A stretch of 33,766 nt of DNA from Candidatus Saccharimonadota bacterium (GTDB taxonomy: Bacteria; Patescibacteriota; Saccharimonadia; Saccharimonadales; UBA10212). This document shows positions 10,404 through 33,766 of this stretch, in pieces. The stretch spans positions 1-33,766 of the forward strand of contig JAICWR010000006.1 of NCBI GenBank assembly GCA_025934715.1. Direction: 5' to 3'. Below the pieces are notes generated by a model that was given only the letters and a program-made list of their open reading frames with translations, had not been told where the DNA came from and ran no database searches. The position numbers were made by a program, and so were the translations under genes. The stretch's first letter is position 1. Every line of letters starts with the position of its first letter.

Positions 10404-11324
10404 GTGCTTATGGATTATGAAGAAGCCGTCGGCCAATTCCTGGAATATTTGGAGCTGGAGCAAAACCGCTCCTTGAAGACCATCCAAAATTACAGCCATT
10501 ACCTGACCCGTTTAAGCGATTACGCCGGCGAGATAAAACTCAAAGATATCGACGCCGAACTGGTCCGCAAATGGCGGATGTGGCTCAACCGCCTGCCCAC
10601 GGCCACCAGCGACGAACTTAGCAAAATCACCCAAAATTACCACTTAATCGCCCTGCGGTCTTTTTTGCGCTTCTGCGCCAAGCGCGATTGGGAAACTATG
10701 CAGCCCGATAAAATCGAGCTGGCCAAGACCAGCCGGCCACAAGTGACTTTTTTGGCGCCGGATGAGCTGGAGCGGCTTACGTCACAACCGGACACCTCCA
10801 AGCAAAACGGCCTGCGCGACCGGGCTATATTGGAGTTGCTTTTTTCCAGTGGGCTGCGCGTCAGCGAACTGGTCGGGCTGGACCGCGACCACATCAACCT
10901 AAAACGGCGTGAATTCACCGTCCGCGGCAAGAGCCAAAAGGACCGGCCGGTGTTCATAAGCGATGAAGCCGCCGCCTGGATTGAACAATACCTGGCCAAG
11001 CGCGCCGATAACACCAAGCCGTTATTCATCCGCTACAGCGGCAGTAAAAAGGTCGATAACAGTGGTAATTTCACCCGCTTAACCGCCCGCAGCGTGCAGC
11101 GGATGGTCGCCCGTTACGCCAAAATGGCCGGCATAACCAAACATGTGTCGCCCCATACTTTGCGCCACAGTTTTGCCACAGACTTGCTGATGAACGGCGC
11201 CGATTTACGCAGCGTGCAGGCCATGCTGGGCCATTCCAACATCGCCACCACCCAAATTTACACCCACGTCACCGACCCGCACCTAAAAGAAATCCACTCC
11301 AAATTCCACGCTAAGAAACAATAG
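10404..11324 (+). CDS. XerC/XerD-family tyrosine recombinase
   Basis: 306 aa; N-terminal SAM-like domain, LLFSSGLRVSELVGL, HTLRHSFATDLLMNGADLRSVQAMLGHSNIATTQIYTHV; ATG at 10410 is a likelier start than GTG at 10404. Confidence 0.93.
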   Translation: MLMDYEEAVGQFLEYLELEQNRSLKTIQNYSHYLTRLSDYAGEIKLKDIDAELVRKWRMWLNRLPTATSDELSKITQNYHLIALRSFLRFCAKRDWETMQPDKIELAKTSRPQVTFLAPDELERLTSQPDTSKQNGLRDRAILELLFSSGLRVSELVGLDRDHINLKRREFTVRGKSQKDRPVFISDEAAAWIEQYLAKRADNTKPLFIRYSGSKKVDNSGNFTRLTARSVQRMVARYAKMAGITKHVSPHTLRHSFATDLLMNGADLRSVQAMLGHSNIATTQIYTHVTDPHLKEIHSKFHAKKQ

Positions 11325-27426: not shown

Positions 27427-28128
27427 TCAGCCAGTCGTGGTAGTTGTGGGCGGTGTTCCCGGAAGGCACGCCTGAGCGGTTTGGACTGGCGCATGAGCGA
27501 TCCTGACCCACCGCTTCTTGTGCCGGTACCTTCCCTGGGCCGTAACCTTGAAGCATTGACCAGGTTGTCCGCTGATCCAAAAGACTGCCCTGGGCAGGTT
27601 CCCCTCGCTGACGTTGACATTCTTCCACATTGGCACACCCTTAACGAAATGCCATTGCAGGTTCGTCTTGGGGATGCGCTTGTGATAGGTGCTCCGGTAG
27701 AAGGCGTCCGTGAAATGGGTCTTGTGGTCGCTGTCCTTCAGCAGTGTGACACCGCCCGACAAAAGCAGCTGCGACCACATAGCCGGAATGATGTCCTTCT
27801 TTCCTAGAACGTGATAGACCACCGATTCCCCGCCCCCGTAGTGAAAACCGATGACGTACTCGGCTTTGATTCCAGTTGAGGTAACTTCCTTCTTGATGGG
27901 ACCGAATATGCCCCAGTTCTCCATCAGCTCTGGGTAATCCTTGGCCCAGTGCGTCTGGGCCAGCGTCCTAGTGCTAGCGGCGTTGGCGTTCATGGTTGCC
28001 GATGCTGTCGTGGCCGCGATGAACGCGGCGCAGATAGCGACAACGGTATGCATGCGGCGGGGAGGCCAAGTGTCCGCAATCGCCCCCCTGGCCAGCCTTA
28101 CAGCCAGCCGTGTCATCTTGCGGCGCAT
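27427..28128 (-). CDS. Secreted hypothetical protein
   Basis: Track ORF starts at GTG 28137; ATG at 28128 has better SD spacing. Signal-peptide-like MHTVVAICAAFIAATTASA, then HWAKDYPELMENWGIFGPIKKEV...YVIGFHYGGGESVVYHVLG. Confidence 0.65.
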   Translation of the reverse strand: MRRKMTRLAVRLARGAIADTWPPRRMHTVVAICAAFIAATTASATMNANAASTRTLAQTHWAKDYPELMENWGIFGPIKKEVTSTGIKAEYVIGFHYGGGESVVYHVLGKKDIIPAMWSQLLLSGGVTLLKDSDHKTHFTDAFYRSTYHKRIPKTNLQWHFVKGVPMWKNVNVSEGNLPRAVFWISGQPGQCFKVTAQGRYRHKKRWVRIAHAPVQTAQACLPGTPPTTTTTG

Positions 28129-28356
28129 TCGCGCCACCCCCTTTCAAGGGCCAGTTAGAGTAGGTTCGGTTGAAAAAGTGCTCCAAAGGCTCGGGGAGCC
28201 ATGGATAATCTCAGTCTCAACCCAAACCCCTTGGTACTTATGTAATACCATCAACAGGGGTAGGAAATCAATTGCTTATGTTTTAAAAACATTCCCTGCC
28301 ACTCTTCTTTATCCAGCAGGGAAAATACTTAACTTGTTAAGTATTCATTAGCGAAA

Positions 28357-28385
28357 TTGCATTAGCCTGCCGGCAGTGCTATAAC
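28357..28385 (+). promoter_or_regulatory. Sigma70-like promoter driving the structured RNA
   Basis: TTGCAT (28357-28362)-17-TATAAC (28380-28385). Confidence 0.5.
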
Positions 28386-28391
28386 TTGAAC

Positions 28392-29054
28392 CAGTATTTG
28401 GAGTGTGGTCCAAAAACAAGTTCTTCGACAAGTTGTCCAAAAGAAATACAGGCTAGTTAGATTAGCGCCCGTTCGATGGCTGCTTGATAGCAAGTTATCG
28501 GACTAGAAGCGCTCCAGGCAGCCCGGGAAAACTACAGCCAGGCGGCAGCCGCCCTTCCCCTTCGCGGTTGTCGCTAAAACTCCGCAGGTGGACGGCCAAC
28601 GACCCCGGGCAGCGGCGGCGGTCACTTGTGCTTTATCGGCAAGTGGCCGCCACCGCAGTTAGCACTTTCTTCGCCCCGCCAGAAGAGACGCTTCGGGCGT
28701 CTCTCCTCCTCTCAGGGGCCCCCAGGGAGCGGCCGCACAGCACGGTCCCGAATCGCAAACGCGGCCGCTCCCCTTCCCAGTCCAAGTCGGCCTCCTCCGG
28801 CCACGGCAGAGGCTGCTTGCTGGCTGCCTGCTGTACAGTAGCCTCTGCCCCTTAAGCTTGCCTGCGACGATGTTGCGGTAGGTGGGAGACACCAACCGTT
28901 TTTGGCGCGGGCAGTGGCGACGGCGTTTTAATGCCCTCACGCTGTTGCCAGCGGCAGCCGGCGAATCGCGGCGCCGGCTGCCGCAAACTTCTTTTCGGAC
29001 AACCAAACCACTACACGGCTTCGCCCCTCAGCCAAATGAGGGGCTTTTTATTTT
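28392..29054 (+). ncRNA. Large multi-stem structured RNA candidate, about 660 nt
   Basis: Promoter upstream, ordered series of 5-13 bp stems (see finding), terminal U-tract hairpin; only implausible low-complexity ORFs inside. Confidence 0.65.
29023..29054 (+). terminator. Rho-independent terminator of the structured RNA
   Basis: GCCCCTCA-GCCAAA-TGAGGGGC followed by TTTTTATTTTTA. Confidence 0.85.
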
Positions 29055-29056
29055 TA

Positions 29057-29650
29057 TTATTCCTCGGCCGCTGATTCTGTCTCAATTTCAGGCTGATTTA
29101 ATTCAGATTCAATGCCATCAAGCCACACTAGGTAGGCATGTTGCCTTACGCTATGCAGGGATTTCACATGCTCGATTAATAGCCCCAGCGGTATCCCTTC
29201 TTCTTTTGACACGCGCTCAAGTATCTCCAGCCGGCAGTCGTGTGGATAGCCAGCCATGACCTTATTAAAAACATTTACAGCCATCCTGTCAGCTATGTCA
29301 TGTCTCCGTTTTTCCTGGACTTCACGAATAATTTCAGATTCAGCTTCCAGATCAATATCAATTTCTCTAGCTCTTTTTAATACAGCCGGCCGGAGATCGC
29401 ACACCCGGCCGCCCTCCGCAAGGTAGATCCTTTCGGCAAATCGGACGATTGCCGATTTTCCAATTATGTAAGATGTACGCCGGCCACGGGTCAAGTCAGT
29501 GTCGTCTAACAACATTTCAGTTTGCTGGGTGTCAACTTCTTCGGACGTATAGGCGACTGAGTTTATCATCGATATCCGCAGAGATTCTTCTATCGGCTTA
29601 CCTCCGTAAAAGTCGGCGGGCCTGACTACTTTCACTAGGGGGGGCGTCAA
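29057..29650 (-). CDS. Hypothetical protein, probably C-terminal part of a frameshifted gene
   Basis: 197-aa ORF overlapping the upstream ORF at a C7 tract; no well-placed start. Confidence 0.55.
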   Translation of the reverse strand: MTPPLVKVVRPADFYGGKPIEESLRISMINSVAYTSEEVDTQQTEMLLDDTDLTRGRRTSYIIGKSAIVRFAERIYLAEGGRVCDLRPAVLKRAREIDIDLEAESEIIREVQEKRRHDIADRMAVNVFNKVMAGYPHDCRLEILERVSKEEGIPLGLLIEHVKSLHSVRQHAYLVWLDGIESELNQPEIETESAAEE

Positions 29651-30053
29651 GCTCCCTCCCCTCGAAACTTAACCCACCTCCAGCCGTAAGATAGCTATCG
29701 ATGGCAACACTGTAGAGTTTTTCGTATTCAAGAACCGGCAAGCCTGCTTGATCGAATGACTCATGTAGGCTTTGTAGCATATCAGTTAGTTGATTCGCGG
29801 CCAGTTCAATTTCTGCCGGGTTATTTATCATTTTTCGAATTATTGCCTCAAGCCAGGCGGCTTTTTGGATATTACTTAGCTTCGGGTGTTCGATAACAGA
29901 TTTCTCAAGATCTTTGAGTCTCTGCTCGGCTTCTTGTCTTAAGCTTTCGATATGCTCAGCATACCTATCAGCCGTAGATTCAGATTCCGTTACCTTACCG
30001 CGCGCAATATACAAAGCTTCTAAAGTAGGATACCTGGGGTCGTTTACATCCAT
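29598..30053 (-). CDS. Hypothetical protein, probably N-terminal part of the same gene
   Basis: 151-aa ORF, ATG start; frame diverges after LSFEGRELDAPP at C7. Confidence 0.6.
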   Translation of the reverse strand: MDVNDPRYPTLEALYIARGKVTESESTADRYAEHIESLRQEAEQRLKDLEKSVIEHPKLSNIQKAAWLEAIIRKMINNPAEIELAANQLTDMLQSLHESFDQAGLPVLEYEKLYSVAIDSYLTAGGGLSFEGRELDAPPSESSQARRLLRR

Positions 30054-30154
30054 TTGACTCCTTTGCAGATTAGTATCCCACCGCTATTGGCACCATTGCA
30101 AGCAATAGCAATTTACAGATTACAAAACCTAGTTGGGTTTAGTTGGCCCTGGCT

Positions 30155-30877
30155 TTAAGATGCGATGGATTCCGAGGGCTCTGGCGGGACTTGGCTTTCT
30201 AGTACTAAACTTGGCTCTGGTTGGTCTTGGTTCTCTAACACTGGCGAGTGGTCGTAAATCAGTTTTAGCGCTGTACTGCCCAAAATCTTAAAATCATATG
30301 TCATCGAGGCGTTTTCAAAATATTTCAAGTCCCGCTTCATCACTTCTTTCCAAACTTCTTTATTGAGATTTATGTATCGGCGGCGATATAACTGGCCGGG
30401 AGAAGTTAAGCCGTGCCTAAATTCTTGGTAACTTTCATACCATTCTTTGAATAACTCGGGCGAGGATTTGGACATATCATCAAGGGTCTCTTGTAGCATC
30501 GGCCTTAGGCCAACTAAGGACAGGTCGCCTTTGGCGACTTGCAAAAGCTGCGGCCATTCATCAATGCCAGATTGCCGTATAACCTGGCCAATAATACTGG
30601 CCCGTGGATCATGCGTGCCATAAGTTTCTAGGTCTGGGCCTTTGGCCCGTTCCCGAATAGTCCGGAACTTTCTCACTTTTAAAGAATCTTCGTCTGGGCC
30701 TATCCTATCCTGAGTGAAGATAGGGTTCCAGGACCGGTGATCTATATCAGAAGCCAATGCCGCAGATCCCGCCAATGGCAATAAGGCAGCTCCAATAATG
30801 AAACCACCCCAGGCATCCAGGCGCCTTTTGTCCTCGCTATGCAAATACTCTGCACCCCGCAGCTGCCTCACAATCAT
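30155..30877 (-). CDS. Bacterial sugar transferase (monotopic phosphoglycosyl transferase family)
   Basis: 240 aa; KRRLDAWGGFIIGAALLPL re-entrant helix, PIFTQDRIGPDEDSLKVRKFRTI, GIDEWPQLLQVAKGDLSLVGLRP. Confidence 0.85.
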   Translation of the reverse strand: MIVRQLRGAEYLHSEDKRRLDAWGGFIIGAALLPLAGSAALASDIDHRSWNPIFTQDRIGPDEDSLKVRKFRTIRERAKGPDLETYGTHDPRASIIGQVIRQSGIDEWPQLLQVAKGDLSLVGLRPMLQETLDDMSKSSPELFKEWYESYQEFRHGLTSPGQLYRRRYINLNKEVWKEVMKRDLKYFENASMTYDFKILGSTALKLIYDHSPVLENQDQPEPSLVLESQVPPEPSESIAS

Positions 30878-30960
30878 TACGAATAGTATCTCATATTATT
30901 TATAATATGTCAATATAAATAAGGAGTAGGGAGGAATTTATATCCCTCCCTACTCCGTAC

Positions 30961-31308
30961 CTAGCTTTTATCTGATGTTTTTTTATTGGTTTTTAAGCCA
31001 GCATAGAACTCTTTTTGGGCCGCTGCGATATCCCAGCCAGCTGAGTTAGACAACTCGCCTTCGACATAGTGCTTAATCTGCGCCCACTGCACCGGGCTGA
31101 ACAGCCGCAGCTTTTGGCTGTAGGTTTCGTTTTCGGTGTTGGGCTTTGGCCCGAATTTGGAAAATTCGATGTATTCTCTGCCCTCGCCGGTCTTACCGTG
31201 ACGGGCGTAAAATTTATTGGCTGAATTTTTGTGCAGCGGGATTTCCAAGTAAACTTCCTCGCCCCACGGCAAAACTTTTACTGCTTGGGTTAGTGTTGAT
31301 TGAGACAT
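30961..31308 (-). CDS. Hypothetical protein
   Basis: 115-aa ORF with SD-like AAGGAG upstream of ATG. Confidence 0.65.
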   Translation of the reverse strand: MSQSTLTQAVKVLPWGEEVYLEIPLHKNSANKFYARHGKTGEGREYIEFSKFGPKPNTENETYSQKLRLFSPVQWAQIKHYVEGELSNSAGWDIAAAQKEFYAGLKTNKKTSDKS

Positions 31309-31937: not shown

Positions 31938-33766
31938 ATGCTTAAGTTTAAGAGTGGGCGAGTAGCCCTATGTTTATTTTCACTAACCTGTTTCGCGCTG
32001 GCCGGAGGATTAGTCCGTCTTGCGGCAGCTAATGATAGTTCCCCATGGTTGTCCTCCAACCTGTCCTTAAACAAGCTTGGAGTCGTGTCCGCTACAGATA
32101 TCCCGTCAACACTTTTTGGCGGTGGCAATGTTAATTGTACTGTTGTCTACGACGGTAAGTGCTCAATAGACTCGCCTTACGGCGCAATCTGGAGTAGCTC
32201 GGTTTGGCTTGACGGTAAATGGCGGACAATCAAGGACTATGGCGGCAACAGCTCTAATTTTTTTGCAATCCCCAATTCTGACACCGCTATCACAACCTCG
32301 TCGCCGCCGGGTTTTGGTTCTTATTTATATTTTACCGATGATACATCTCTAGGTTTGACACCGAACTACGTTGTCGGTTCGCCCGATTTAGGCGCCGGCT
32401 TAAGCTACTTTCAGCTTAACCGGCCATACAACAGGAAATTGGCAGATAAAACAGGTAGCCGTTTGGCTGCTGATTTAAACTCTATGGCTTTTTCTGGCGA
32501 CAGCCAGTGGATGGTTGTCACAAGTCCAAACGTCGCAAACCTACGGGTCAATATAATCACTGGAGAAGTTTTACCTTTCGGGAAGACATTAACTTATGGC
32601 TTTGGCCAAAATCCAGTGCCTAAAAACACCATCACTAGTGACGGCCGCTACGCATTGGAGGCCACCCGCGATGCTTCCACCTTTGCAATCTATGACTTAT
32701 CCACCTGCGCGGCGGCGCCTGATTCAATTTCCCGCCCAGTTAGCTGCCAAAGCCGTGAACTACTAAATAGCGGCTATCTGGCCAGCCATATACCAGGCTA
32801 CAGTGGCACAGCATATGCCCGTTTCATTTCCGATAGCACGTTGATGTTCTATGCCAGCTACACTGATGGATCCACTACAAAATATGGGCAATATATTTTA
32901 AGCACAGAGCCTGACAGTACCAGCCAGCAGCAGTACCTAGCCTTGGGAGATTCTTATATTTCAGGCGAGGGTACTTTTGATTATTTAAGCGGAACCGATA
33001 CTGGTGCGAATAAATGCCATCTTTCGCCCTCATCTTATCCATTCCTAATCGGTCGTGATCTGAGTTATGACACTTATAATTCAGTGGCGTGCTCCGGAGC
33101 TACGACAGACGACATCATAAATTCAAGCGACAATTATGATGGCCAAACCAGCTACGGCCTTACCAGGGAAGAATTACAAAACACAGTCCAATTCGATAAT
33201 TTTTTAAACTCTTTTTCGCCCGGTTGGATTAACCAGCTCGAGTTTGTTAAAAAGTATCAGCCCCAAGCAATAACAATCTCTATCGGCGGCAATGATATGG
33301 GATTTTCTAATATTCTTGAACAATGTGTAGCGTTTTGGAAAGCCAACACGTGCTACAGCACGTACGAAGACCGGCTCGAACTAGTGGGCTTAATCAATAA
33401 CACGGTGTTCCCAAATCTGGTAAAGACCTACTCGCTGCTAAAACAGACTGGGCCGGCAAACATGCGCATCTATGCTATCGGCTATCCCCAAATTGCCCTG
33501 CCGGGCGGGGATTGTGCTGTTAATGTCCAGTTAAATAATGACGAGCTAGTCTTCTCGCAGCAGCTTATCAGCTATCTGGATAGCGTAGTTAAGGCAGCGG
33601 CTGACAGGGTTGGAGTCAGGTATGTTGAAGCACAGGATGCTTTGGAAGGACACCGTCTTTGTGAAGCCGGACCAGATTCAATCGCGATGAACGGTATAAC
33701 TGCCGGCAATGACCGTCCCTCAATACTGGGCGGGCCACTTGGCGATGAAAGCTACCATCCGAATAA
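31938..33766 (+). CDS. Secreted SGNH/GDSL hydrolase-like protein, truncated by window end
   Basis: ATG at 31938, open for 609 codons to the window edge; hydrophobic N-terminus; LALGDSYISGEG, ACSGATTDD, SIGGNDMGF, DESYHPN match SGNH blocks. Confidence 0.88.
   Translation, partial: MLKFKSGRVALCLFSLTCFALAGGLVRLAAANDSSPWLSSNLSLNKLGVVSATDIPSTLFGGGNVNCTVVYDGKCSIDSPYGAIWSSSVWLDGKWRTIKDYGGNSSNFFAIPNSDTAITTSSPPGFGSYLYFTDDTSLGLTPNYVVGSPDLGAGLSYFQLNRPYNRKLADKTGSRLAADLNSMAFSGDSQWMVVTSPNVANLRVNIITGEVLPFGKTLTYGFGQNPVPKNTITSDGRYALEATRDASTFAIYDLSTCAAAPDSISRPVSCQSRELLNSGYLASHIPGYSGTAYARFISDSTLMFYASYTDGSTTKYGQYILSTEPDSTSQQQYLALGDSYISGEGTFDYLSGTDTGANKCHLSPSSYPFLIGRDLSYDTYNSVACSGATTDDIINSSDNYDGQTSYGLTREELQNTVQFDNFLNSFSPGWINQLEFVKKYQPQAITISIGGNDMGFSNILEQCVAFWKANTCYSTYEDRLELVGLINNTVFPNLVKTYSLLKQTGPANMRIYAIGYPQIALPGGDCAVNVQLNNDELVFSQQLISYLDSVVKAAADRVGVRYVEAQDALEGHRLCEAGPDSIAMNGITAGNDRPSILGGPLGDESYHPN

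Follow-up and report, generated by a model that had tools for sequence, protein, structure and literature searches.

A candidate orphan structured RNA gene in a 0.71-Mb Saccharimonadota genome

The question raised by this locus is what is encoded within a 919-nt intergenic stretch (28138–29056) that contains a strongly structured region and lies between two orphan genes, both on the minus strand. The window, the whole stretch of DNA that we analysed, is an entire contig (C25, 33.8 kb) of a draft genome (G000, 0.71 Mb). Homologue searches with the proteins of the neighbouring genes identified them as orphans and gave no PHROG matches, and no prophage genes were found adjoining the structured region. 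The closest tRNA is ~19 kb away, and the site adjoins a type IV pilus cluster (pilM, pilN, pilB, pilT and pilC). Our preferred answer, to which we assign a probability of about 0.6, is that positions 28392–29054 are a freestanding gene for a structured RNA; it is best read as an orphan that is genus-restricted and fast-evolving, of which a single congeneric relative may exist.

Transcription signals and predicted fold

The predicted transcript (28392–29054, + strand) is ~660 nt long, noncoding and highly structured, as indicated by its folding score, its coding scores and the lack of an Rfam match. The promoter proposed in the sequence-only reading is present with both hexamers and the spacing that it gave (28357–28385, + strand): TTGCAT (28357–28362) and TATAAC (28380–28385) are separated by a 17-nt spacer and accompanied by an extended -10 TG, placing the predicted start near 28392, and there is a counterpart in the congener G001. 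The -35 box is weak, and because it matches just 3/6 consensus positions the promoter is absent from the list returned by a consensus scan. At the other end, the intrinsic terminator claimed at 29023–29054 (+ strand) consists of an 8-bp stem, GCCCCTCA/TGAGGGGC, followed by TTTTTATTTT; a terminator scan lists it (29023–29044 plus the T-run) on the + strand only, and its stem has a pair probability of 1.0. We note that, taken as a class, such terminator-like sites are no more frequent than in shuffled sequence (two found, against a mean of 2.0). The earlier view that there is no credible coding sequence here also holds, with ORFs inside the region having hexamer scores of -29 to -48 under a model trained on G000, negative in every ORF tested, and called genes scoring clearly positive. 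A promoter, a noncoding transcript of ~660 nt and an intrinsic terminator would together make up a freestanding RNA gene, and we infer that it is expressed as a + strand transcript. The gene downstream of the terminator is convergent, and no + strand gene lies 3' of the RNA.

Folding of the + strand gives a minimum free energy of -324 kcal/mol, whereas its shuffles average -258 (z -9.2) and none of the 120 is as low; the minus strand has a z of -4.8; the structure therefore exceeds chance and is biased to the + strand, in agreement with the proposal of a structured RNA. The stems that had been listed by eye were all recovered at their positions, most of them with ensemble pair probabilities of 0.7–1.0; weaker helices are those at 28397–28414 (0.51) and an additional helix at 28858–28914 (0.47). 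The accompanying argument that G-U pairs point to function in the + strand transcript is right in direction, with 8 G-U pairs against 2 A-C mismatches on that strand in an unbiased stem count, but it carries little statistical weight (p=0.11, not significant alone).

An element that the sequence-only reading did not list is a long-range closing helix of 14 bp with one bulge, which pairs 28432–28445 with 28989–29003 (pair probability 0.97–1.0) and is equalled in stability by just 2/2000 shuffles of the end segments. It would tie both ends of the RNA together around one branched domain and about ten hairpins rich in GC. Outside it lies the 5' hairpin TTTGGA-GTGTGG-TCCAAA (28397–28414), which is kept at the syntenic G001 locus. 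The 5' strand of the helix forms the 3' part of a motif, TCGACAAGTTGTCCAAAAGAA (28425–28445), that recurs in a structured RNA on G001 contig C4. Within the helix, the fold and ensemble calculations place, all on the + strand, a hairpin domain combining AGCGC/GCGCT with GTTCGATGGCT/AGTTATCGGAC (28464–28513), the branched domain with closing stem GCCCGGG/CCCGGGC (28521–28610), a long hairpin GCGGCGGCGGTCACTTGT/GCAAGTGGCCGCCACCGC (28612–28656), a hairpin with arms AGAGACGC and GCGTCTCT on either side of its loop (28684–28704), a 12-bp hairpin GGGAGCGGCCGC/GCGGCCGCTCCC (28725–28772) and a 13-bp hairpin GGCAGAGGCTGCT/AGTAGCCTCTGCC (28805–28849). The least certain part, at 28858–28914, is an irregular domain in which internal loops separate helices of 9 bp + 5 bp + 4 bp; its low probability applies to the outer pairs. 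A 12-bp hairpin with two G-U pairs (28915–28950) follows, then a perfect 13-bp hairpin, GCGGCAGCCGGCG/CGCCGGCTGCCGC, seen in the fold (28951–28984), and finally the 3' strand of the closing helix (28989–29003), which overlaps GCAAACTTCTT (28983–28993).

Relationship to known RNA families

The region matches no known family, as the sequence-only reading had judged. Rfam scans at the gathering threshold and with E up to 10 returned only tRNAs of the window and chance matches, with no match to OLE, ROOL or GOLLD, so that the resemblance to these RNAs suggested earlier is unsupported beyond analogy. RNase P RNA and tmRNA, which that reading had also failed to find here, are both located elsewhere in the genome and were rejected as candidates: an RNase P RNA of type A lies at G000:C26:11060-11410 (251 bits) and the tmRNA at L127:1330-1728 (93.5 bits), with none in the window. 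BLAST searches against 61 relatives, 16 genomes of the family and 394 of the order gave nothing beyond short chance matches, which fell in coding DNA or in terminators, and searches of phages, plasmids, viral contigs and GTDB gave nothing relevant. Two single-sequence covariance models, each of one domain of the RNA, recovered only self and noise, R1 in 394 genomes plus local sequence and R2 in local sequence. These searches found no alignable homologue of the RNA body; an orthologue, in G001, exists for the 5' hairpin alone.

ROOL and GOLLD are phage and prophage RNAs that form RNA-only nanocages; ROOL env-120 is 659 nt and GOLLD is often >800 nt (PMC12286853). The window RNA is like them in its similar length, its many hairpins, its freestanding nature and its lack of a known function (PMC12286853), but differs in having no Rfam match, no tRNA island, no adjoining phage genes, no conserved core that we found and no broad distribution. 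OLE is likewise a structured freestanding RNA of ~600 nt; it occurs mostly in Bacillota and has conserved sequence blocks (PMC12054373 and PMC9723947), whereas the window RNA has neither an Rfam match nor blocks of this type. The nearest documented situation is that of the unnamed, homologue-free intergenic regions left by screens on GC content and intergenic length, 31 of them in Thermovirga lienii (PMC6429828). These single-genome candidates are also long, GC-rich and without homologues (PMC6429828), although the window RNA differs in having a documented promoter, terminator, closing helix and sister-species context. In the open literature that we searched, we found no large structured RNA described from this branch of tiny bacteria.

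The corresponding site and a possible relative in a sister species

The syntenic place in G001 falls where contigs C1 and C58 meet, a join that we infer in these draft genomes from ends that share roughly 90 nt with a single mismatch. Two collinear blocks connect it to the window, one at 28264–28296 (82%, E 5e-5), the other covering the first hairpin at 28393–28414 (91%, E 2e-4). A G001 promoter, TTGCAA-17-TACATT, lies upstream of the shared hairpin with nearly the same spacing as in the window. The hairpin reads TTTGGAGTGTGGTC[C/T]AAA across both genomes, and in G001 (TTTGGA-GTGTGG-TCTAAA) a single C to U change turns a G-C pair into G-U, keeping the pair. No other piece of the predicted transcript is conserved at this locus. 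The hairpin was rejected as an order-wide motif, being found exactly in G000 and G001 only, with no exact match in 392 other genomes of the order.

Downstream of the hairpin the two genomes differ completely, and the RNA body is not conserved at this place. G001 instead has a structured leader of ~215 nt, then a gene for a 119-aa orphan membrane protein, and then its own terminator. The leader is strongly folded, with a hairpin covering the ribosome-binding site, and it contains a domain similar to RAGATH-10 (RF03147; L045:46-132, minus strand; 32.1 bits, E 2e-4, against a cut-off of 41.2). The genes on the other side of the syntenic locus differ too, and we read the spot as a variable-cargo site. 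The locus as a whole (window 27427–31308 and G001 C1/C58) is bounded by a TPR-like gene at a conserved position and by the gene at 30961–31308, and its contents are different secreted orphan proteins, either the RNA or the membrane protein, and a sugar transferase. The RNA gene would then occupy a site at which, in the sister species, this promoter and first hairpin precede a small membrane-protein gene.

A possible relative lies at a non-syntenic locus on G001 contig C4, where a predicted transcript unit of ~780 nt (L157:3743-2957, minus strand) has the same layout as the window RNA: a promoter (TTGCAT-16-TATACT), GC-rich hairpins, a terminator and a closing helix, here of 10 bp and matched by 2/2000 shuffles. 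Its own strand folds with a z of -12.7 against -8.6 for the other strand, with 9 G-U pairs against 4 A-C mismatches in the stem count. The two RNAs have in common the motif TCGACAAGTT-n-CAAAAGAA on the 5' strand of the closing helix (TCGACAAGTT-TGCAAAAGAA in the C4 version) and GCAAACTT[C/G]TT on the 3' strand, and GCAAACTTCTT is 10/11 like the C4 RNA at the same place. None of 5000 shuffles reaches the summed end-motif score (p about 2e-4 before correction), a figure that concerns two short motifs spotted once about ten candidates had been inspected, and by blastn alone the similarity is not significant against all intergenic regions. Across the order the 5' motif occurs at chance level, and TCGACAAGTT-n-AAAAG was rejected as a family marker, its match count being at the control level; among the genomes that contain it, a long noncoding structured setting is seen only in G000 and G001. 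The evidence for a relationship between the C4 and window RNAs is suggestive.

Alternative explanations and possible role

How far strong structure sets this region apart was judged from the ~660 kb of G000 and ~520 kb of G001 that we analysed, in which intergenic regions of at least 300 nt were scored. By folding excess the window region ranks about 7th of 93 in G000; several others are equally or more structured, many of them symmetric foldback-like DNA, and among the stronger-scoring regions some occur in related copies and the majority differ little in folding between the two strands. Being strongly structured is therefore not enough to make a region of G000 unusual; this one is distinguished by being single-copy and strand-biased while also having a promoter, a closing helix and a terminator. 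Families of 100–200-nt foldbacks occur in intergenic regions of both genomes, with copies ~70–85% alike and both strands folding well (among others, L122:9307-9620, L127:13035-13409, L127:15711-16326, L125:3649-4092 and L157:37-184). Two other strongly structured intergenic regions, one in each genome, contain a short frame starting MPWWGWL with a hydrophobic stretch (L121:7928-8372 and L163:9019-9631, both minus strand), which may be an unannotated conserved micropeptide.

Given this background, the region could itself be a foldback (MITE-like) or hairpin-array element, with any relevant structure at the DNA level and transcription incidental. The abundance of strong foldbacks in both genomes, several with sequence-related copies, is consistent with this, as are the closing helix, which doubles as a terminal inverted repeat, and the non-syntenic position of the element-like C4 copy. 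We nonetheless regard it as rather unlikely, since most such elements are strand-symmetric whereas the window and C4 RNAs favour the strand with promoter and terminator, and G000 has no second copy of the region beyond a 22-nt palindrome. A clear target-site duplication was not found, and the syntenic G001 locus carries other cargo and is not an empty site. A structured mRNA leader whose gene has been lost or replaced would account for the synteny, the conserved promoter and 5' hairpin, the strongly folded G001 leader with its RAGATH-10 score of 32 bits, and the similar total lengths of the predicted transcripts (about 645 and 660 nt). This is an unlikely reading, however, as the window RNA has no gene, ribosome-binding site or protein remnant, differs from the G001 leader that replaces it in giving no RAGATH-10 signal, and is ended by its terminator ahead of any + strand gene.

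Very little probability attaches to a protein gene or pseudogene that is GC-rich, of foreign origin and so far unrecognised. In G001 the cargo at the syntenic place is a GC-rich gene (62%), and the window region does contain a 123-aa ORF (28484–28855), but the coding scores are negative, a Pfam search gave no match, and tblastn of the pseudo-translated RNA against GTDB and viral contigs found no relatives. A highly divergent member of a known large class (OLE, ROOL or GOLLD) is equally improbable: only length and a closed multi-hairpin layout speak for it, as in the 659-nt ROOL env-120 RNA (PMC12286853), against the failure of Rfam to match even at E up to 10 and the lack of detectable prophage genes adjoining the RNA.

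On the preferred reading of a freestanding RNA gene, we tentatively predict, with low confidence, that the RNA acts in trans as a stable folded scaffold or RNP-type RNA, rather than as an antisense RNA or mRNA leader, because its body is self-closed and terminator-ended and no gene on the same strand follows. It is also conceivable, at a similarly low probability, that the window and C4 RNAs represent a new class of large closed RNAs that evolve very fast and are exchanged as cargo among variable chromosomal sites in this genus of ultra-small bacteria. Members of such a class would have nothing in common but the closing-helix motifs (TCGACAAGTT-n-CAAAAGAA and GCAAACTT[C/G]TT) and the architecture, and ordinary sequence and covariance searches would consequently miss it. 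A noncoding RNA of 660 nt is a real investment for a ~0.7 Mb genome, in a branch of tiny bacteria that are probably host-dependent. If it is transcribed, large ornate RNAs would also arise as fast-changing local cargo invisible to homology-based screens, which speaks for screens based on architecture (promoter, closing helix, terminator and strand-biased fold) as well as on sequence.

Upstream of the promoter lies a perfect 10-bp palindrome, AATACTTAAC-TT-GTTAAGTATT (28324–28345), which is one copy of a genome-wide element of the form AAATACTTAAC-NN-GTTAAGTATTT. There are ~37 copies in G000, 36 in G001 and 32 in G002, against 0 for a reversed-pattern control, and 15/16 genomes of the family have matches. 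About half of the G000 copies are intragenic, nearly always in the one open frame, and some of these have counterparts at the same position in orthologues from other genera; the palindrome is absent from the syntenic G001 promoter. Because it is dispersed genome-wide with about half of its copies inside genes, we rejected a role as operator of the window RNA, to which this copy is probably unrelated. It looks like a chromosome-organisation site (matS/NBS-like) or a widespread operator.

Two further genes of the window are recorded here as separate observations. A tyrosine recombinase (10404–11324; Phage_integrase match, E 3e-46) is possibly a Xer-type chromosomal recombinase. At 32049–33766 there is a partial secreted protein, truncated at the contig end, with a GDSL/SGNH-esterase-like motif (LALGDSYISGEGTFDY), and a reading frame resembling it is present on G001 C58.
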